Shown here: one piece after another, positions 41,486-64,000 of the stretch | Numbering within the stretch: position 1 is the stretch's first letter | Layout: each line of letters opens with the position of its first letter | Assembly: GCA_947624305.1 (NCBI GenBank) | Contig: CANQKC010000011.1 | Location: forward strand, 1 to 64,000 | Direction of reading: 5' to 3' | DNA: 64,000 nt | Source: an uncultured Monoglobus sp. | Lineage (GTDB): Bacteria; Bacillota; Clostridia; Monoglobales; Monoglobaceae | Translations under genes and position numbers: made by a program | The notes under the pieces: generated by a model | Seen by the model: only the letters and a program-made list of their open reading frames with translations | What the model was told of the DNA's origin: nothing | Database searches by the model: none

Positions 41486-41767
41486 ATGAATATAAGGCCC
41501 TCAGCCGCAATTCGCGACAATTATAACGATATTTCTAATTATTGTAAAAGCACAGGCGAGCCCATATGCCTCACAAAGGACGGCGAGGGGGATCTCGTTG
41601 TTATGAGTATGGACGCGTTTTCAAGGCGTGAAATGATGCTCAAGCTGCGCGAGGAGCTGATAGCGGCTGAAGAGGACAGAGTTTCCGGCAAATCCGGATG
41701 CACCGTTGACGAGCTTGATAATATATTAAGTGATGTTATTTCGGAGGCAAGCAATGCCCAAGGATGA
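41486..41767 (+). CDS. Phd/YefM-type antitoxin (second copy)
   Basis: This 93-residue antitoxin shows the Phd/YefM pattern (RPSAAIRDNYNDISNYCKST, GEPICLTKDGEGDLVVMSMD, AFSRREMMLKLREEL). It is similar along its DNA-binding half to the antitoxin at 12192, so the two are paralogues. The toxin gene overlaps it by 14 nt. A GGAG-type site precedes the ATG. It probably wraps the toxin and represses its own promoter. Confidence 0.88.
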   Translation: MNIRPSAAIRDNYNDISNYCKSTGEPICLTKDGEGDLVVMSMDAFSRREMMLKLREELIAAEEDRVSGKSGCTVDELDNILSDVISEASNAQG

Positions 41768-42080
41768 AACTTCGCGTAATGAGTACAATGTTATTGTTTC
41801 GGACAAATCCGCGGCAATGCTTAAAAACCATGTTGGTTTTATGGCGCGCGTATCTCCGAATGCAGCCGAGAAACTGCGGCGCAGAATGATAGATGAGATC
41901 AAATCATTGTCATTTATGCCTCAAAGCTGTCCTTGGTTCAATCACGCGGAAATTCCAAAGAACAAATATCGCAAAAAACTTGTTGCAAAGCGCTATTTGC
42001 TTATATTTCAAATCAAGGGTGATACAGTGTTTCTTGATTATATCCTTGATTGCAGACAAAATTATTCGTGGCTTATATAA
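41754..42080 (+). CDS. RelE/ParE-superfamily toxin (second copy)
   Basis: This 108-residue protein reads as a RelE/ParE-like toxin: VIVSDKSAAMLKNHVGFMAR, an internal helix pair and the KYRKKLVAKRYLLIFQIKGD strand pair. It ends in VFLDYILDCRQNYSWL, as in the RelE/StbE group. It starts at ATG 41754 with GGAGG six bases upstream, inside the antitoxin gene. It differs strongly from the toxin at 12448 although the antitoxins are related. Confidence 0.85.
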   Translation: MPKDETSRNEYNVIVSDKSAAMLKNHVGFMARVSPNAAEKLRRRMIDEIKSLSFMPQSCPWFNHAEIPKNKYRKKLVAKRYLLIFQIKGDTVFLDYILDCRQNYSWLI

Positions 42081-42118: not shown

Positions 42119-45100
42119 TTATATCATTTTGGAGATCATCTTGCAGACCTCGGCCCGCGTGGCGGGCGCTTTGGGGTCGAATCTGTTGTTTTCCTTTCCG
42201 TTTATTATTCCCATGCTCCGCATAAGTCCCACGCCAAAGACCGCGTAATCCGAGATCTCCGCGCTGTCGGCGAAATCGGGCGCGGGCGCGTCCTGCGTTT
42301 TAGCGGTTCTCGCCAATATAACGCAGATGTCCTCGCGGGTGATGTTCTCGTCGGGTAAAAAGGTTCCGTCCGGATAACCCGTCACATATCCCGCGCCGCT
42401 CGCCCACGCGATATAGGGCGAATACCACTCGCCCGCCCGAACGTCGGCGAATACCGCCGCTGACGGAGCGTCGGGTTCGGCCGGCCCCATGGCTCGGCAG
42501 ATCACCGCGGTCAGCTCTGCGCGCGTGATATTGCTTTCGGGTCTGAATGTGCCGTCGCCGTAACCGTTTATGATGCCCTTGCCGCTGAGCTCCATTATAT
42601 AATCATACGCCCAGTAATCGGCCTCGACGTCGTTGAACACGGCAGTATCTGCGGAGCTGTCGGGCGCGGGGGAGGCTGTCGGAGCGGCTGTCGGCGACGG
42701 TGAAGCCGCGGAACTTGTGCCAAATCCGCCGCCCGATCCGCCGAAACTTCCCGATGAAACGTGGCTGTCTTTGGTATAGTCGTCGCTGTAATAAAGCAGC
42801 AGTTCGTCTCCGTCTTTAAGCGTGTAGGAGCCTATTCCAACCGAGGGGCTGACGCCGTTCACGGTATAGAGCCAGCCGCTGTTTTTGCCGTTGTCGAACT
42901 CGCTGAGCGTCAGGCCGTCGGGCGTGGTGACCGATTTTATATATCCGCTGTCAATGCCGTCTGCCGAGTATCCTTTGTCGCTCAGAACCGACTTGAGCGC
43001 CGCCGCCGCGCGGGTCCCGTTCGGGAACGTCTTTTTTGCCGCGGATATCCATTCGGGATAAGCGCCGCTGTGCTTTCCCTCGCCGTGCGGCGTGTCGCCC
43101 CTGACCGTGACCGTGACGGATATGCTTCCGCCTGATCCGCCGCCCGAGCCCGAACCGGAGCCGCCCGAAACGCTTCCGCCTTCGCCGGGCTTCTGCGTCT
43201 CACCGATATAAACGTTATAGGCCTTGTTGCCCGCGCTTTCAAAGCCCTTGAGGGCGATAAGCGCGCGGAAGCCCTGCTCGGTCGCGAGAGCGTTAAGCTC
43301 GGAACCGTCGGTATAGCCGAAGCCGCTGTTGTCCGCGAGCGCGAAGCCGATCAGATCGTCCGCCGCGCTTTTGCCGTTTTTGACGAACCGCTCGTCCTTC
43401 GAGGGGTCAATGCCTATCGCCGCGAGGCCGATCACAACCATCGCGTCGGTGTTTGAGCTGAAGAACGTTCCGCCCTCGCCCTGAACCGAGGACAAAATTT
43501 CAACAATGCCGTCAACGGCCTTTTTTATGTCGTTTTGCTGCGCCTCGGTTATTCCCGCGCCGCCGGATGACGCGGCGTTATAATACTTCGCGAGAGCGGC
43601 GAGGACCATCGCGGTCGAGTCATAATCCGGAAAGCTCTGTCCGCCCCATTCATAGCCCCATATTCCGTCCGCGCCGCGGCTTGTCAGTATGTAATCAAGC
43701 AGGGCCTCGCGCGTCAGATTGCCGCCCGAGGTGTAATTCCCCGAGTCATACGTAAGAAGCGCGAACACCGCGTCGGTGACATAGGTTATGTCGGAGGGGT
43801 CAAACGCCGACAGCTTTTGAATTAAATCAAACTCGGAGCCGTCCGAGGTTTTGAGCTTGTCAAGACTGCCGCCCAGGGCGCTGATCGCCAGCGCGTCCTT
43901 TGAAAGCTCGCCTATACCTTCGGCGGAGTATGCCGCGTCAACAAGGCTTTGGAGCGACGCGGTTTTGTCTTTGAGCAGACCGCCGTATCCGCCGCGCGCC
44001 ATGTCAAGCAGCGTCCACGAGTCATTGGTGTCCGCGTATGATCTTGAGATATTATCAAGCAAAATCGCGGCGCGGTCGGAAGTCTGAATATCGGTTGAAG
44101 GCCCGGCGCTCGCCGAAGGCTCGGGAACAGCCGAGGGAGCTCCCGTCGGTGCAGCCGTTGGCACCACGGTCGGAGCCGTTGTGGGGATTTCCGTGGGCGA
44201 GGCAGTAGGCGTCTCTGTCGGAGTTATTGTAGGTGCATCTGTGGGAACGGCTGTCGGAGCTTCCGTTGGCACCTCGGTCGGAGCTGTTGTCGGCGCATCG
44301 GTAGGCGTAATTGTAGGCGCTGCCGTCGGAACCTTCGTCGGAGCCGTTGTGGGGATTTCCGTGGGCGCGGCAGTAGGCGCCGTCGTGGGCATTTCCGTAG
44401 GCGCAATTGCAGGCGTTTCCGTTGGTGCGGCAGTAGATACCTCTGTCGGAGTTATTGTCGGAACTTCCGTGGGAACCGCCGTTGGTGCTTCCGTAGGAGT
44501 CATTGTAGGAGCTTCCGTAGGAGCCATTGTTGGAGTCTCCGTGGGCGCCTCTGTCGGAATTTCTGTGGGAACTGCTGTCGGAACTGTCGTAGGAGCCTCC
44601 GTCGGAGCGGCGGCGGACACTTTTACCTCGCACCAGGGCTGCACAAAATATGTAAAATCGTCCGACGCGCTTTCCGCCGAGATATAATATGTTCCCGGCG
44701 CGTCAAAGCTTATCGTGAACCCGCCGTTGTCGTCGGTGACGATCCCGCTGTCTGTAAGCTCGTTCGGGTCGGTACCTGAAAGAATGACGATATCGGATAT
44801 GGGCTCGGTGTATTCCTCGATCATGTCGGCGGGATAGGAACCCCACATTGTCATATATCCGCTGAGCGTCAGGGCGATCTCCTCGCCGGGAGCGGCGGCG
44901 ACCTGCGAGCGGTCAAAGAAGGCGTAATAATCGCTGTAAAAGTCTCCGTCCTGATAGAAGAAGAGGTTCACTTTTTCTCCGCCGCTTAAGATCGACTTGT
45001 CCGCGCTATAGGCCCCGTATGAGCCGTAAAGCGGGTTCAGCACTCCGTCATTCGGCTGAACGCCGTCAACAAGAAAGCCCGAGGCGCGGCTGTCGCCGAA

Positions 45101-45433
45101 CATCAGGTCAACAAAGCCGCTCTCGGTTATGTTGAGGTACTGCGGGGCGGTTTCGGGCGTGAACATGTCGCCGAGCATCAGCTCGTGCGCCGCGGCTATC
45201 GCGTCGAACACGCTGACGGTGCTCTCGTCGTCGCTGAAGCCGTATTTTTTCGCCGTGTCGGGCGCGACGGTCAGCTCGGTCGGCGGCATTATGATCGTCT
45301 CGTCCGAGATCATCATAGTGATTTGCGCCGGAGCCTGATCGGCGGATACCGCGCCGCAGAAAAGCTGCGGCACGATCATCGCGGCGATAAGCAGGATCGC
45401 GGTAAGTTTTCGGGTCAGTTTTTTTGTTGTCAT
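42119..45433 (-). CDS. S-layer-anchored transcobalamin-like protein (toroid + DUF4430 + SLH)
   Basis: This 1104-residue exported protein starts with a signal peptide (1-31). Next comes a DUF4430-like beta domain (about 36-165: STVSVFDAIAAAHELMLGD, GFLVDGVQPND), then an Ig-like domain. A Pro-Thr linker follows (about 285-450), then an alpha/alpha toroid of the prenyltransferase/terpene-cyclase fold (about 455-743: GIWGYEWGGQSFPDYDSTAM, NALATEQGFRALIALKGF). A Gly/Ser linker leads to a canonical DUF4430 (770-889: GWLYTVNGVSPSVGIGSYTL, KDGDELLLYYSDD), and three SLH repeats close the chain (931-1104). Toroid plus DUF4430 is the architecture of vertebrate intrinsic factor and transcobalamin. A cobalamin riboswitch precedes the gene. 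I infer a surface corrinoid-binding protein. The ATG at 45433 has AAGGAGGAG upstream. Confidence 0.88.
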   Translation of the reverse strand: MTTKKLTRKLTAILLIAAMIVPQLFCGAVSADQAPAQITMMISDETIIMPPTELTVAPDTAKKYGFSDDESTVSVFDAIAAAHELMLGDMFTPETAPQYLNITESGFVDLMFGDSRASGFLVDGVQPNDGVLNPLYGSYGAYSADKSILSGGEKVNLFFYQDGDFYSDYYAFFDRSQVAAAPGEEIALTLSGYMTMWGSYPADMIEEYTEPISDIVILSGTDPNELTDSGIVTDDNGGFTISFDAPGTYYISAESASDDFTYFVQPWCEVKVSAAAPTEAPTTVPTAVPTEIPTEAPTETPTMAPTEAPTMTPTEAPTAVPTEVPTITPTEVSTAAPTETPAIAPTEMPTTAPTAAPTEIPTTAPTKVPTAAPTITPTDAPTTAPTEVPTEAPTAVPTDAPTITPTETPTASPTEIPTTAPTVVPTAAPTGAPSAVPEPSASAGPSTDIQTSDRAAILLDNISRSYADTNDSWTLLDMARGGYGGLLKDKTASLQSLVDAAYSAEGIGELSKDALAISALGGSLDKLKTSDGSEFDLIQKLSAFDPSDITYVTDAVFALLTYDSGNYTSGGNLTREALLDYILTSRGADGIWGYEWGGQSFPDYDSTAMVLAALAKYYNAASSGGAGITEAQQNDIKKAVDGIVEILSSVQGEGGTFFSSNTDAMVVIGLAAIGIDPSKDERFVKNGKSAADDLIGFALADNSGFGYTDGSELNALATEQGFRALIALKGFESAGNKAYNVYIGETQKPGEGGSVSGGSGSGSGGGSGGSISVTVTVRGDTPHGEGKHSGAYPEWISAAKKTFPNGTRAAAALKSVLSDKGYSADGIDSGYIKSVTTPDGLTLSEFDNGKNSGWLYTVNGVSPSVGIGSYTLKDGDELLLYYSDDYTKDSHVSSGSFGGSGGGFGTSSAASPSPTAAPTASPAPDSSADTAVFNDVEADYWAYDYIMELSGKGIINGYGDGTFRPESNITRAELTAVICRAMGPAEPDAPSAAVFADVRAGEWYSPYIAWASGAGYVTGYPDGTFLPDENITREDICVILARTAKTQDAPAPDFADSAEISDYAVFGVGLMRSMGIINGKENNRFDPKAPATRAEVCKMISKMI
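44110..44620 (-). repeat. Pro-Thr-Glu-Ala linker repeat
   Basis: About 28 imperfect units of PTEAPT/PTVPTA/PTITPTE type form a long extended spacer between the N-terminal domains and the toroid. The antisense strand looks like a Val/Gly-rich frame, which is an artefact. Confidence 0.85.
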
Positions 45434-45488
45434 AGGTCTCCTCCTTGTAAGTTTAATAAAATAAAAAACCCGCGCAGGGCGCAGGCGC

Positions 45489-45518
45489 AAAAACACTTCC
45501 GCAAAGGCGCGGCGAGTG
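45489..45518 (-). terminator. Likely terminator in the riboswitch expression platform
   Basis: On the minus strand CACT-CG-CCGC pairs with GCGG-A-AGTG around GCCTTT and is followed by T5. It lies between the cobalamin aptamer and the start codon, so B12 binding could cause early termination. Confidence 0.6.
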
Positions 45519-45556
45519 CGGTTGCCTAATTCAAGTCCCTGTGAATTGTACTCGGC

Positions 45557-45724
45557 TGATCAAAGGCAGGTCTTCCGGCTCAGGTTCATCGCGCTTCGGC
45601 GCCTTCCCGACAAAAGTCAGTGGCGTGAAGCCGTCGCACTCCCCATTACGGCAGCAAGGACTGCTCGGGATTTTCACCCGCATTCCCTATTATCGGACGC
45701 CGCGGCGCCCGCACCGTTTGATCA
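45557..45724 (-). promoter_or_regulatory. Cobalamin (AdoCbl) riboswitch
   Basis: Read on the minus strand this has the B12-aptamer landmarks in order: GGGAATGCGGGTGAAAATCC (from 45687), GCAGTCC, GCTGCCGTAATGGGGA, GCCACTG, GGGAAGGCG, and AGCCGGAAGACCTGCC ending at 45565. Closing stem P1 is TGATCAAA paired with TTTGATCA (45717-45724 with 45557-45564). It sits about 120 nt before the toroid/DUF4430/SLH gene, with a terminator-like hairpin in between. I see no clear promoter between the preceding DtxR-type gene and the aptamer. Confidence 0.95.
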
Positions 45725-45756
45725 TATTCAATTGTCATGCCCGTTTGGCGGGCGGT

Positions 45757-48800: not shown

Positions 48801-49931
48801 ATGAGGAAAAGAAGAATTTTATCGCTGTTGCTGGCAGTGGCAGTAATGGCAACAATGTTAATCGCGGTACCACTGACCGCAAGCGCGGCGGAGGAAATAA
48901 CATTTGGTGCGTATGCAAAACCGTTCAAATCAACAAATCAAAATTATGTGGATTGGACTTACCATCAAACAACGTCAATTGATCAAAGCGATCCTGACAA
49001 ACCCAAACAAACGAGTGATTCTATGATGAGTTATAAAGATTCCGTTAAAATAAGTTTTGGTGATTTTACGTCAAATGAAATTAAGCAAAATTCAGGTGGT
49101 GATTTTGTAGTCATAAATGATGATTTTGACTTACCGCATAATGAGCATGTTGCCCATCCAGGAACATCGGGTTATGTGGCAAAATCTAATTCGAGCTCAT
49201 ATTTAGAAATAACAAATGCAATTCCGGATGGATGTGATTTTAAAAGTTATGATTTGATTTTAGTATATAATCGTGACAGCAATAGCAGCGGAACAACTAA
49301 ATTTACTATAAGTGATTCGCAAGGCAGTTTTAGCAAACAATTTTCTGATGAATCTAGTAATAATTTTGGAGATGACGGAAATAGTAAAAAGACAGATCCC
49401 GATGAAGTTATTTTTAAAAACATAACTTCTAATAGTGTTAAGCTCTCATGGAATGTTAATGTTGACATCTACAGCGTGTCGCTTGATTATCACGAAAAGG
49501 ATCGGCAGGAAGTTGATCTTATAAGAGGCGAAAAAGACTATGTTTCGGGTATATACTATGAAAATGATGTTGAAACCGAAGGTGAAGCGAGAGGCGTGAT
49601 CAGATTTTTCCAGGATTACAGCGGCGAAGCGGACGGTTACGGATTTGTGTTTATTGACGGAAATGGTGATTTTGTTGAAGGCACAACAACTATAAATGAC
49701 GGCAGAATTGTTAAAAGCAACGATGGCGACGGCACGCTGAGCGGAAAAAGCGGTTTTTACGGTGATGTTTATAATATTTTAGAAACAAATTTTGAGCCGG
49801 GAGTTATCGCCGTGCCTTATGTATCGGTTGACGGATATATTATTTTCGCAAAAGAATCAATAAAAGGAACGGTTGATGAGACAAACAAGGTTATACACGA
49901 GCCGGAATGGGAATGGACGATTACCGAATAA
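48801..49931 (+). CDS. Secreted protein of unknown function, AT-rich
   Basis: This 376-residue protein has a clear signal peptide (RKRRILSLLLAVAVMATMLI, cleavage near AASA/AEE at about residue 30). I recognise no domain. The body is rich in Ser, Asn, Asp and Lys and poor in Arg, with beta-type patterning and no Cys pairs beyond one. DNA from about 48,900 to 49,480 is far more AT-rich than neighbouring genes, with T/A-ending codons, which suggests recent transfer. It is flanked by repeats and followed after 24 bp by a small peptide gene. Confidence 0.82.
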   Translation: MRKRRILSLLLAVAVMATMLIAVPLTASAAEEITFGAYAKPFKSTNQNYVDWTYHQTTSIDQSDPDKPKQTSDSMMSYKDSVKISFGDFTSNEIKQNSGGDFVVINDDFDLPHNEHVAHPGTSGYVAKSNSSSYLEITNAIPDGCDFKSYDLILVYNRDSNSSGTTKFTISDSQGSFSKQFSDESSNNFGDDGNSKKTDPDEVIFKNITSNSVKLSWNVNVDIYSVSLDYHEKDRQEVDLIRGEKDYVSGIYYENDVETEGEARGVIRFFQDYSGEADGYGFVFIDGNGDFVEGTTTINDGRIVKSNDGDGTLSGKSGFYGDVYNILETNFEPGVIAVPYVSVDGYIIFAKESIKGTVDETNKVIHEPEWEWTITE

Positions 49932-60440: not shown

Positions 60441-61478
60441 ATGAGTTTGATAACCCGCCTTGAGGCGGATAAAAATTTGAGCGACAGCGAGCTGCGCGCC
60501 CTGCTTGAGACGGACGAATATGACGGCGGGCTGCGCGAGGCGGCGGACAGGGTCCGCAGAAGCGTTTACGGCACGGACGTGTATATTCGCGGCCTGATCG
60601 AGTTTACCAACTGCTGCAAAAACGACTGCTATTACTGCGGAATACGGCGCTCCAACAAAAACGCGGAGCGGTACCGCCTGAGCCGCGAGGAAATTCTTGA
60701 ATGCTGCGCAGAGGGATATGATCTCGGGTTCCGCACCTTTGTGCTGCAGGGCGGCGAGGACCCGTATTACAGCGACGACCTTATCTGCGGAATAGTGTCG
60801 GATATAAGAAAAAATTATCCCGACTGCGCCATAACCCTGTCGATCGGCGAGAAGCCGCGGGAGGGCTATAAGGCCTATTTTGACGCGGGCGCCGACCGCT
60901 ACCTGCTGCGGCACGAGACGGCGGACGCGGAACATTACTCGCGTTTGCACCCCGCATCCATGAGCCTTGACAACCGAAAACGCTGCCTGCTTAATCTCAA
61001 AGAGATAGGCTATCAGGTCGGCTCGGGTTTTATGGTCGGCTCGCCGTACCAGACTACGGACAACCTGATCTCGGACTTGAGATTTCTAAAAAAGCTCGGC
61101 CCGCACATGATCGGAATAGGCCCGTACATCACTCACGCGGACACTCCTTTTAAAAAATTCAAAAGCGGCAGCCTTGAACTCTGCTTAAGGCTGATCTCGA
61201 TCCTGCGTCTGATGTTCCCCGAGGCGCTCATACCCGCCACCACCGCGCTCGGTACGATACATCCGCTCGGCCGCGAAATGGGCCTTAAGGCCGGCGCCAA
61301 CGTGGTCATGCCCAATCTGTCGCCCGTCTCGGTGCGCAAAAAATACGAGCTTTACGAAAATAAGATATGCACAGGCGAGGAGGCGGCCGAGTGCCGCGGC
61401 TGTCTTGAAAGACGGGTCGAGGCGGCAGGCTACCGCGTGGTAACGGACAGGGGCGACAATATCGCCTTTCGGAAATAA
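60441..61478 (+). CDS. hydE: [FeFe]-hydrogenase maturase HydE
   Basis: This 345-residue radical-SAM enzyme helps build the dithiolate bridge of the [FeFe]-hydrogenase H-cluster. The cluster motif CCKNDCYYCGIRRSN (CxxxCxxC) follows IEFTNCC; GFRTFVLQGGEDPYYSDDLI and LLRHETADAEHYSRLHPASM are family-typical, as is the ending PNLSPVSVRKKYELYENKIC. BioB-like relatives exist, but length and motifs fit HydE. The start has only a weak site (GTGAGAG). Neither hydF nor hydG is in the window. It implies hydrogen metabolism. Confidence 0.93.
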   Translation: MSLITRLEADKNLSDSELRALLETDEYDGGLREAADRVRRSVYGTDVYIRGLIEFTNCCKNDCYYCGIRRSNKNAERYRLSREEILECCAEGYDLGFRTFVLQGGEDPYYSDDLICGIVSDIRKNYPDCAITLSIGEKPREGYKAYFDAGADRYLLRHETADAEHYSRLHPASMSLDNRKRCLLNLKEIGYQVGSGFMVGSPYQTTDNLISDLRFLKKLGPHMIGIGPYITHADTPFKKFKSGSLELCLRLISILRLMFPEALIPATTALGTIHPLGREMGLKAGANVVMPNLSPVSVRKKYELYENKICTGEEAAECRGCLERRVEAAGYRVVTDRGDNIAFRK

Positions 61479-61543: not shown

Positions 61544-62488
61544 ATGAAACTCAAAAACGCTTTAATAATTTTTATCGCGCTGCTGACAGTGCCGTTTGGC
61601 TGCTTCGCGGCGGATACGGACTTCAAAACTACCGAGACCGCGAACTATGTTCGGACGGCAGCCATGTCGCCCGCGCCGGGTTCGATCGGCGGCGAATGGG
61701 CGGTGATCGGCGTAAAGCGCTCGGGCATCACGGCGGACGCGTATTTTGACGGCTATCTGCGCAGGCTCGGCGATTTTATGAAAGAAAACGGCGCGAGCGT
61801 CAATCGCTATACCGACTATTCAAGAATTGCCCTCGCGCTGCGCGAACTGGGCCAGAAGGATACATATGGGCTCAGCGCCTATGTGAACGATTATGACAAA
61901 GTGACAAACCAGGGCATTAACGGCCCTATATTCGCTCTTGAGGCCAAACACGCCCTCGGCGACCAGGACACCGTGACAAGAGACAGATATATCGAATATA
62001 TTTTGAGCCGCCAGAGCGCGGACGGCTCCTTCGCTTTGAGCGAGGATATGCCCGACACCGACATAACGGCTATGGCGGTCGCGGCCCTGTCGCTTTATAA
62101 CACGAATATCGAGATCGACCGCGCAATCAACCGCGGATTTCTGTATCTTTCATCCGTGCAGGCGGGCGACGGCAGTTTCGCGCCGACAAGCGGCGAGGAG
62201 GCGAGCTGCGAAAGCACCGCGCAGGTGATCATCGCCATGAAGCGGCACGGTCTAAGACCCGACAACAGATTTTTTGTGAAAAACGGCAATACCCCGTCCG
62301 ACGGCTTAGACCTCTTCCGCAAGAGCGGCGGGGGCTATGCGCACCTCGCCTCGGACTCCGCGCCCGATCAAATGGCGTCGGAGCAAGCCCTGCTCGCCTT
62401 GACCGCGCCCGAGGGAACGCCGAAGACGCTGGTTTACGACTCGATATGGTTCGATGCGTCGCAGGCGTATCTTGAGAGCCAAAGATAA
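61544..62488 (+). CDS. Exported alpha/alpha-toroid protein (transcobalamin alpha-domain-like)
   Basis: This 314-residue exported protein has a signal sequence (residues 1-23) and then an alpha-helical toroid of the prenyltransferase/terpene-cyclase type: ALALRELGQKDTYGLSAYVN, ILSRQSADGSFALSEDMPDT, DITAMAVAALSLY and YLSSVQAGDGSFAPTSGEEA. The end, DNRFFVKNGNTPSDGLDLFR with ASEQALLAL, closely follows the toroid of the SLH protein (DERFVKNGKSAADDLIGF, ATEQGFRALIAL). It lacks a DUF4430 domain; that domain is in the next gene. I infer a corrinoid-binding partner. Confidence 0.83.
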   Translation: MKLKNALIIFIALLTVPFGCFAADTDFKTTETANYVRTAAMSPAPGSIGGEWAVIGVKRSGITADAYFDGYLRRLGDFMKENGASVNRYTDYSRIALALRELGQKDTYGLSAYVNDYDKVTNQGINGPIFALEAKHALGDQDTVTRDRYIEYILSRQSADGSFALSEDMPDTDITAMAVAALSLYNTNIEIDRAINRGFLYLSSVQAGDGSFAPTSGEEASCESTAQVIIAMKRHGLRPDNRFFVKNGNTPSDGLDLFRKSGGGYAHLASDSAPDQMASEQALLALTAPEGTPKTLVYDSIWFDASQAYLESQR

Positions 62489-62518: not shown

Positions 62519-63322
62519 ATGAAAAAACGATTAATTATCCCGCTTGCCGCCATGCTTTGCCTGTCTCTCGCCGGGTGCGGCGGAGACAGCCCCGCCCCCG
62601 AGCCTTCGGCCACGAATGAGACATACGCGGGAATAAGAACCGAAAGCAGGTTCTCGCCGGACGGCGAAAGCTCGGAAGCGCCGCAGCCCGCGGCAAGCGC
62701 CGAACCGAACGCGGCACCTGCGCCCTCCGCCGCTGCGAAAAACGCGGGCGGCAGTTCAAGCGTCGCGGCGCGAACCGAAAATGACGTAACAGTTGCGGCG
62801 CAAAACGCCGTAACAAGCGAAAACGCGGCTCCGGACATAAGCTCCGCGTCAAGCTCCGAAAATTCCGCGGAAAACGCGGCCCCGAACGGCGAAAGCGCGC
62901 CTCTGCCCGAGCAGCAGCCCGCCGCTCCCGAAAACAGCAAAAGCACCTGCGCGTTTTTGATCGACTGCTCAAAGGCGCTTGAATACCCGGGCCTGAGCGG
63001 CAGCCTCCGCTCCGCCCTGCCGCAGAACGGCGTGCTCTACGGCGGCAGCCCCGAGGTCAAAGACGGCGACAGCGTTTTTGACCTGCTGCAGCGTATCACG
63101 CGGGAAAACGGAATACCTATGGAGTTTTCGTCCTCTCCGGGCTTCGGCTCAAAGTATATCGAGGGCATAAACTCGCTGTATGAGTTTGACTGCGGCCCAA
63201 ACTCGGGCTGGGTGTATTTTGTGAACGGCGAGAAGCCTGGAGTGGGCTGCGATAAATATGAAATAAAGCCCGGCGACGATGTGCGCTGGTACTACACACT
63301 GGACTTAGGCAACGATATATAG
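62519..63322 (+). CDS. DUF4430 lipoprotein (transcobalamin beta-domain-like)
   Basis: This 267-residue lipoprotein has a lipobox LSLAGC (Cys at residue 20), a long low-complexity Ala/Glu/Ser/Pro linker (20-140) and a C-terminal DUF4430 domain (about 145-267): DSVFDLLQRITRENGIP, YIEGINSLYEFDCGPNSGWV, YFVNGEKPGVGCDKYEIKPG, DDVRWYYTLD. DUF4430 is also called transcobalamin-like C-terminal. It sits 30 bp after the toroid gene and 9 bp before the ECF T-component gene. The SD is weak, so coupling from upstream is likely. I infer that it completes the toroid as the second half of a binding site. Confidence 0.87.
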   Translation: MKKRLIIPLAAMLCLSLAGCGGDSPAPEPSATNETYAGIRTESRFSPDGESSEAPQPAASAEPNAAPAPSAAAKNAGGSSSVAARTENDVTVAAQNAVTSENAAPDISSASSSENSAENAAPNGESAPLPEQQPAAPENSKSTCAFLIDCSKALEYPGLSGSLRSALPQNGVLYGGSPEVKDGDSVFDLLQRITRENGIPMEFSSSPGFGSKYIEGINSLYEFDCGPNSGWVYFVNGEKPGVGCDKYEIKPGDDVRWYYTLDLGNDI

Positions 63323-63331
63323 GAGAAAATT

Positions 63332-64000
63332 ATGCGTGATGAATTTTCACGGTTCCATCCGACGGTAAACTTTTTATACTTCGCCGCTGTGATCGTATTC
63401 GCGGCGATATATATGAGCCCGCCCCTGGTCGCGATCTCGCTGGCCGCGGCGCTCATATACTCGATTTACATGGGCGGCGCGCGGTCGCTCAAATTCAGCA
63501 TGCTCATAATACTTCCGATAGGGCTGTTCGCCGCGCTTATAAACATAGCGTTCAACCACAACGGCATGACGGTCCTGACCTATCTGCCAACCGGCAACCC
63601 GATAACTCTTGAGTCGATAGTCTACGGCCTGTGCGCCGCGGCGCTTCTGGCCGATGTGATACTCTGGTTTTTCTGCTTCAACAAGGTCATCACGTCCGAC
63701 AAGTTCATATATCTGTTCGGTCGGATAATCCCGTCGCTGTCGCTTGTGCTTTCAATGGTCCTGCGCTTTATCCCGCGTTTCCGCCATCAGCACCATTCGG
63801 TCGTGACCGCGCAGAAGAGCCTTGTCAAGGCGGGCGGCAAAAACGGCTTTATATCAAAGATTAAGCACGGCGCCAATGTGTTCTCGATCATGCTCACATG
63901 GTCGCTTGAGAACTCGATAATCACGGCGGACTCAATGAATTCGCGCGGCTACGGCTTAAAGGGCAGAACAGCCTTTTCGCGCTATCGCTTCTATTCGAGG
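63332..64000 (+). CDS. ecfT: ECF transporter T component (partial, cut by window end)
   Basis: The first 223 codons of a polytopic membrane protein (at least five hydrophobic segments) with EcfT features: SLSLVLSMVLRFIPRFRHQH and the coupling-helix signature DSMNSRGYGLKGRTAF, which matches the Ala-Arg-Gly box of EcfT/CbiQ. EcfT links a substrate-binding S component to the EcfA ATPases. AGGAGA lies seven bases before the ATG. The gene runs off the window without a stop, so S and A components are expected beyond the edge. It is operonic with the toroid and DUF4430 genes. Confidence 0.9.
   Translation, partial: MRDEFSRFHPTVNFLYFAAVIVFAAIYMSPPLVAISLAAALIYSIYMGGARSLKFSMLIILPIGLFAALINIAFNHNGMTVLTYLPTGNPITLESIVYGLCAAALLADVILWFFCFNKVITSDKFIYLFGRIIPSLSLVLSMVLRFIPRFRHQHHSVVTAQKSLVKAGGKNGFISKIKHGANVFSIMLTWSLENSIITADSMNSRGYGLKGRTAFSRYRFYSR

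Follow-up and report, generated by a model that had tools for sequence, protein, structure and literature searches.

A riboswitch-linked protein with SLH repeats and an intrinsic factor-like fold in Monoglobus, predicted to capture corrinoids for a CbrT-type ECF transporter

The 64,000-nucleotide (nt) stretch of DNA analysed here, "the window" (positions 1 to 64,000 of contig CANQKC010000011.1, uncultured Monoglobus sp.), carries on its minus strand a cobalamin (vitamin B12) riboswitch followed by the gene for a large surface protein, P0001, in which an alpha/alpha toroid and a DUF4430 domain precede three SLH repeats. The system is larger than one protein, and 16 kb away on the plus strand lies a gene set for a separate toroid protein and a DUF4430 lipoprotein together with an ECF transporter. 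Based on sequence and structural modelling we consider it very probable that P0001 captures corrinoids (B12) at the cell surface, is controlled by the riboswitch and feeds a CbrT-type ECF transporter. The riboswitch and the P0001 gene comprise the following features (window coordinates, with the evidence in brackets):

45548-45734, minus strand: cobalamin riboswitch aptamer, RF00174 (cmscan).
45457-45512, minus strand: expression platform with a CCGCGC arm (45512-45507), a terminator hairpin (45486-45468) and a U-tract to about 45457 (terminator scan, fold, relatives).
42119-45433, minus strand: gene for the 1104-aa surface protein P0001; ATG start, ribosome-binding site and signal peptide are present (translation, Pfam).
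44609-45328, minus strand: N-terminal beta-rich domain, residues about 36-275, with an Ig-like second half (alignment, AlphaFold2 model).
44084-44608, minus strand: Pro/Thr-rich linker (PF04886).
43199-44038, minus strand: alpha/alpha toroid, residues about 466-745, corresponding to the alpha domain in transcobalamin and intrinsic factor (AlphaFold2 model, fold matches, profile comparison).
42776-43126, minus strand: DUF4430, a transcobalamin-like SLBB beta domain, residues about 770-886 (PF14478, fold match).
42128-42637, minus strand: three SLH repeats, predicted wall anchor, residues 933-1102 (PF00395, 128.6 bits, three stretches).

The aptamer is the sole RNA match in the whole window (cmscan) and runs from 45734 to 45548 on the minus strand with 108.1 bits and E 4.1e-26, against a gathering score of 31.5 bits; model positions 1-189 are covered and the aptamer is thus complete. 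The original prediction, made from the letters of the window, had placed a complete cobalamin aptamer at 45557-45724 on this strand, and this segment is contained in the full-length RF00174 match. The terminator-like hairpin that it described after the aptamer was found both by the terminator scan, at 45486-45468 and followed by TTTTTATTTT, and by folding (minimum free energy -13.2 kcal/mol, z -2.5). With hairpin and U-tract present the expression platform is able to terminate and, as read from the sequence, the upstream CCGCGC (45512-45507) could pair with the GCGCGG of the terminator 3' arm, so that a choice between terminator and antiterminator is possible. Terminator-like hairpins are also present 3' of the riboswitches in 18 relatives and of the second RF00174 copy in this genome. 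Upstream of the riboswitch and on the same strand, the gene for a DtxR/MntR-type metal regulator (PF02742, PF01325; 45757-46152) ends 22 nt from the aptamer, and a gene of the same size (131 aa) occupies this position in four sister genomes (L034, L036, L039, L041).

The P0001 gene starts with an ATG at 45433 behind AAGGAGG and ends at 42119; in its product the signal peptide is followed by the N-terminal beta domain, the Pro/Thr linker, the toroid, DUF4430 and the three SLH repeats. Pfam places PF14478 at residues 812-883 (50.5 bits) and gives just a sub-threshold cyclase match for the toroid, which is evident from the AlphaFold2 model (helices over residues 7-268 of the modelled fragment) and with which the fold matches to toroids agree; Pfam, model and fold matches hence concur with the toroid, DUF4430 and triple SLH composition first proposed for this 1104-residue protein. 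The SLH part resembles the S-layer protein Sap in a single-sequence PDB search and is predicted to anchor the protein to the wall; a CsaB-family pyruvyl transferase, which SLH anchoring needs, is encoded in the genome. The N-terminal beta domain is kept in relatives and was modelled with a predicted local distance difference test (pLDDT) value of 80, and since it gave only generic, non-specific Ig-like matches we claim no function for it. Dozens of proteins with SLH repeats, and several with similar Pro/Thr linkers, are encoded on many contigs of the genome, so that display by SLH is a common feature of the surface in this organism.

For the toroid and DUF4430 together (residues 466-892) an AlphaFold2 model was built on a 46-sequence alignment (pLDDT 88.4) and compared with 350,542 PDB chains using Foldseek. 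The top 15 chains are all transcobalamin (TC), haptocorrin (HC) or intrinsic factor (IF), with E-values from 1.7e-9 to 1.6e-7, and no other PDB chain scored below 1e-3. VIA-align gave Z 20.6-22.7 to TC, HC and IF across both domains, with IF (2PMV) as the best (Z 22.7), and the model also matched the cyanocobalamin-bound human TC beta domain (5np4, TMt 0.71). An alternative is that the toroid represents a secreted enzyme resembling terpene/polyprenyl cyclases, or a protein acting on sugars, with an incidental link to the riboswitch: by sequence, the toroid alone is closest to squalene-hopene cyclases, and both cyclases and epimerases are among the toroid-fold matches of the model. However, terpene cyclases reach Z 18.3 and lower in VIA-align and cover the toroid only, B12 binders alone match both domains in order, and the DxDD motif of cyclases reads D-Y-D-S in P0001, its last Asp not being kept in the family; we regard this alternative as scarcely credible. 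A cyclase identity had been indicated by sequence searches of the PDB, where a 13-sequence profile retrieved only cyclases and the P0001 sequence by itself gave only SLH, low-complexity or weak matches, and it was overturned by the structural and profile-to-profile comparisons.

In the latter, hhalign was used to compare the bacterial profile with an animal profile made from IF, HC and two TC sequences, the letters of which were verified against the PDB entries, and gave a probability of 96.3, E 1.6e-9 and a score of 75.7; none of 30 column shuffles scored above 18.8, and reversing the profile gave 23.3. Foldseek, VIA-align and the profile comparison accordingly all align the toroid-DUF4430 part to the animal proteins, as the likeness to intrinsic factor in the original prediction implied. 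Three residues that are invariant in the animal set, IF Asp153, Asn246 and Gln252, align with D605, N714 and Q720 of P0001, which are kept in 43/46, 39/46 and 44/46 of the bacterial sequences, respectively. On the strength of this alignment the three residues might line a binding pocket. Another match of the model is PDB entry 3u7z (RUMGNA_00854 of Ruminococcus gnavus, 'putative metal binding protein'; TMt 0.63 over 97 residues, presumably the DUF4430 part), which may be an unrecognised B12-binding beta domain.

The pairing of riboswitch and protein recurs across genomes. Among 38 genomes of the window's family RF00174 is present in 34 and DUF4430 in 37, and 32 of the 41 riboswitches are followed on the same strand, at a distance of 0.3-5 kb, by a DUF4430 gene, while about 0.1 would be expected by chance (our estimate, taking each 2-Mb genome to contain about two DUF4430 loci). 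Of the remaining nine riboswitches, two are followed by toroid proteins, two directly by genes for ECF T and A-A-S, one by a gene resembling an S-component and one, at a contig end, by the start of a P0002-like gene; two lie at contig ends, and one precedes a short remnant-like gene with the same C-terminal domain. In a wider survey 84,980 species genomes were scanned and 420 relatives returned, from which 80 Bacillota loci, picked by protein similarity independently of the RNA, were kept and searched with a riboswitch profile (nhmmer). The riboswitch is present at 59/80 loci, in 58 of them upstream and on the same strand, and none was found in shuffled DNA, which argues against an incidental link between riboswitch and toroid. 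The usual architecture is signal peptide, beta domain (not in all), toroid, DUF4430 and SLH, often 60-260 nt behind the aptamer. The hosts include Monoglobus, Anaerovorax, Cellulosilyticum, Aneurinibacillus thermoaerophilus, Paenibacillus, Fusibacter and Urinicoccus, the riboswitch not being present at every locus; that of A. thermoaerophilus (L115) does have it.

The only other RF00174 match in the window's genome (contig C7, 83480-83702; L003 8779-13335) also leads to a large secreted protein, of 1518 aa, with Glug repeats, DUF4430, toroid and Pro/Thr linker and without SLH; the next gene encodes a 1328-aa Glug and Pro/Thr protein, and a possible remnant of this unit lies behind a riboswitch in L055. 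Two small family genomes (L071 3112-4063 and L072 956-1534) have a weak RF00174 match of 28-32 bits that precedes merely a DUF4430 lipoprotein and/or an ECF S-component-like gene, i.e. a stripped-down system.

The second gene set extends from 61544 to 66615, beyond the end of the window, and consists of:

61544-62488, plus strand: stand-alone secreted toroid protein P0003, 314 aa (PF00432, 29.8 bits).
62519-63322, plus strand: DUF4430 lipoprotein P0004, 267 aa, lipobox LAGC (PF14478, 72.7 bits).
63332-64000, plus strand: ECF transporter T component, continuing on the contig to 64219 (PF02361).
64135-66615 of the contig: fused ECF A-A-S subunit, 826 aa.

Toroid HMMs made from P0001 and from P0003 retrieve overlapping sets. 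The ECF T component and two ATPases are present, and the only PDB match of the S part of the A-A-S protein is the CbrT chain of 6FNP (chain A, E 1.1e-12). CbrT is a demonstrated B12 importer that had earlier been predicted from gene context and the lack of BtuCDF (PMC5997447). In sister genera the order within a single riboswitch-led operon is surface protein, toroid protein with or without SLH (not always present), DUF4430 lipoprotein, ECF-T and the ECF A-A-S fusion (L037, L047, L051, L052, L053, L062, L064, L067 and L068). When the alpha and beta domains of TC are provided as separate pieces they can bind cobalamin, and they come together only in its presence (PMC5599065; PMC11107200), which makes a split toroid/lipoprotein pair plausible. 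That the DUF4430 and toroid proteins and their ECF partner instead import another nutrient, e.g. cobalt or a different vitamin, and are merely B12-controlled would fit with the cobalt-transporter annotation of ECF T components (PF02361/TIGR02454) and with DUF4430-type domains in B12-making archaea (PMC1796856), but CbrT as the only PDB match of the S-component and a fold match specific to B12 binders make this very unlikely. A radical SAM gene (PF04055; HydE/BioB-type by reading) at 60441-61478 precedes the P0003 gene in the same orientation, with 65 nt between the two.

With respect to the need for B12, the window's genome (99.8% complete) encodes two proteins with a B12-binding domain, one MetH-like and one small corrinoid protein. 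CbiC was not found in it (other B12 synthesis enzymes were not searched) and no FecCD/BtuC permease scored over the cut-off; the host is therefore probably unable to synthesise B12 and is without an importer of the BtuC type.

Several observations weigh against B12 capture by a homologue of the animal proteins as set out above. The root mean square deviation between model and TC/HC/IF is 4.8-5.9 Å over both domains, and the relative domain orientation is thus loosely fixed; identity between P0001 and the animal proteins is about 14-18%, and hhalign against IF alone is unconvincing (probability 2.1). The cysteine/disulfide pattern of the animal binders is absent, residues 466-892 of P0001 having no cysteine, and we therefore class P0001 as a homologue only, outside the animal family. 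Moreover, the split ECF set in the window's genome lacks an RF00174 match of its own, and no PduO or BtuR adenosyltransferase was found in this genome (EutT was not searched), so the riboswitch ligand may not be self-made adenosylcobalamin; methylcobalamin, hydroxocobalamin or adenosylcobalamin scavenged from outside may be sensed instead.

The missing adenosyltransferase, usually required for cobinamide salvage, also bears on another explanation, namely that P0001 binds mainly incomplete or non-cobalamin corrinoids (cobinamide, other cobamides) shed by other microbes and serves salvage and not cobalamin uptake. Gut habitats are rich in different cobamides. CbrT-type and BtuFCD transporters import cobinamide too (PMC6593275), and the TC beta domain binds it (PMC5599065). 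Since BtuR and PduO, the two families to which the search for salvage enzymes was limited, were not found we judge salvage as the main role to be rather unlikely.

For the preferred reading, i.e. capture of B12 for uptake, we infer the direction of switching, corrinoid binding and hand-off as follows. When B12 is plentiful the riboswitch would permit the terminator to form and the gene would be off; when B12 is scarce the leader would be read through and the surface protein produced. At the wall, P0001 would then hold the corrinoid between its toroid and its DUF4430 domain, and the captured B12 would probably be handed over at the membrane via the split binder, the secreted toroid and the DUF4430 lipoprotein, to the CbrT-type ECF transporter encoded beside it, which would take it into the cell. 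More tentatively, we suggest a two-tier Gram-positive relay in which an SLH-anchored, intrinsic factor-like binder under riboswitch control at the wall and a split transcobalamin assembling round its ligand precede CbrT-type ECF delivery, and in which such systems might be the source of animal intrinsic factor and transcobalamin.

P0001 shares fold and order, toroid and then SLBB/DUF4430 beta domain, with animal intrinsic factor, transcobalamin and haptocorrin (2PMV, 2BB5, 4KKI), and differs from these in its SLH wall anchor, the extra N-terminal domain, the long Pro/Thr linker and the riboswitch control. Bacterial surface proteins with toroid and SLBB domains were predicted as B12 scavengers in low-GC Gram-positives by Burroughs et al. 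in 2007 (PMC1796856), who noted a paralogous SLBB gene nearby, CbiO/CbiQ-type transporter operons and hosts without B12 synthesis, and proposed that animals had taken transcobalamin from low-GC Gram-positives. P0001 fits their clade in having a secreted DUF4430/SLBB domain fused to a toroid; the CbiO/CbiQ-like operon and a second SLBB protein accompany it in sister genera, the set being 16 kb off in the window's genome, and the host matches the lack of B12 synthesis as far as CbiC is absent. Thus, the Gram-positive, animal-like B12 binder of the original prediction is supported by fold and context but is less novel than supposed, the kind itself having been predicted before. What is new is the association with a riboswitch and with CbrT, the SLH anchor and the structural support: the 2007 paper names LPXTG-type and other anchors and mentions neither S-layer nor riboswitch, and CbrT-type S-components were identified later. 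No experimental report of such proteins was found in a literature search, which most subscription papers were outside the reach of. Compared with ECF-CbrT (Santos et al. 2018, 6FNP) the S-component is homologous and T and two ATPases are present in both, whereas here a single 826-aa protein combines A, A and S, and the operon also encodes a toroid protein and a DUF4430 lipoprotein, neither of them mentioned in the searched passages of the CbrT paper.

The BtuG lipoproteins of Bacteroides likewise capture B12 at the surface and feed a transporter, and the comparison is functional only, their setting being the outer membrane, unlike that of P0001 (PMC6143338).

The BtuG and P0001 folds are not known to be related. 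To our knowledge, little has been described of the way in which Gram-positive gut bacteria without BtuFCD capture scarce B12 at their surface. Through the recurrent linkage of riboswitch, surface binder and CbrT, what was predicted in 2007 becomes a specific system whose genes are named and which can be tested, and relatives are present in cultured hosts (Anaerovorax odorimutans, Aneurinibacillus thermoaerophilus and Paenibacillus). If our reading is true, bacteria that compete with their animal hosts for B12 would carry an intrinsic factor-like binder, and the bacterial sequences could be used for asking whether the animal B12 binders arose from Bacillota.

Two other observations were made in this genome. 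Convergent with the P0001 gene, a pair of genes at 41486-42080 encodes a Phd/YefM-like antitoxin and a ParE-like toxin, both just under the Pfam cut-offs. Furthermore, two secreted proteins of different lengths, encoded at 48801-49931 of the window and at 67521-69503 of contig C11 (L004 7522-9504), have near-identical signal peptides (MRKRRILSLLLAVAV-ATMLIAVPLTASA) and represent a repeated secreted family.

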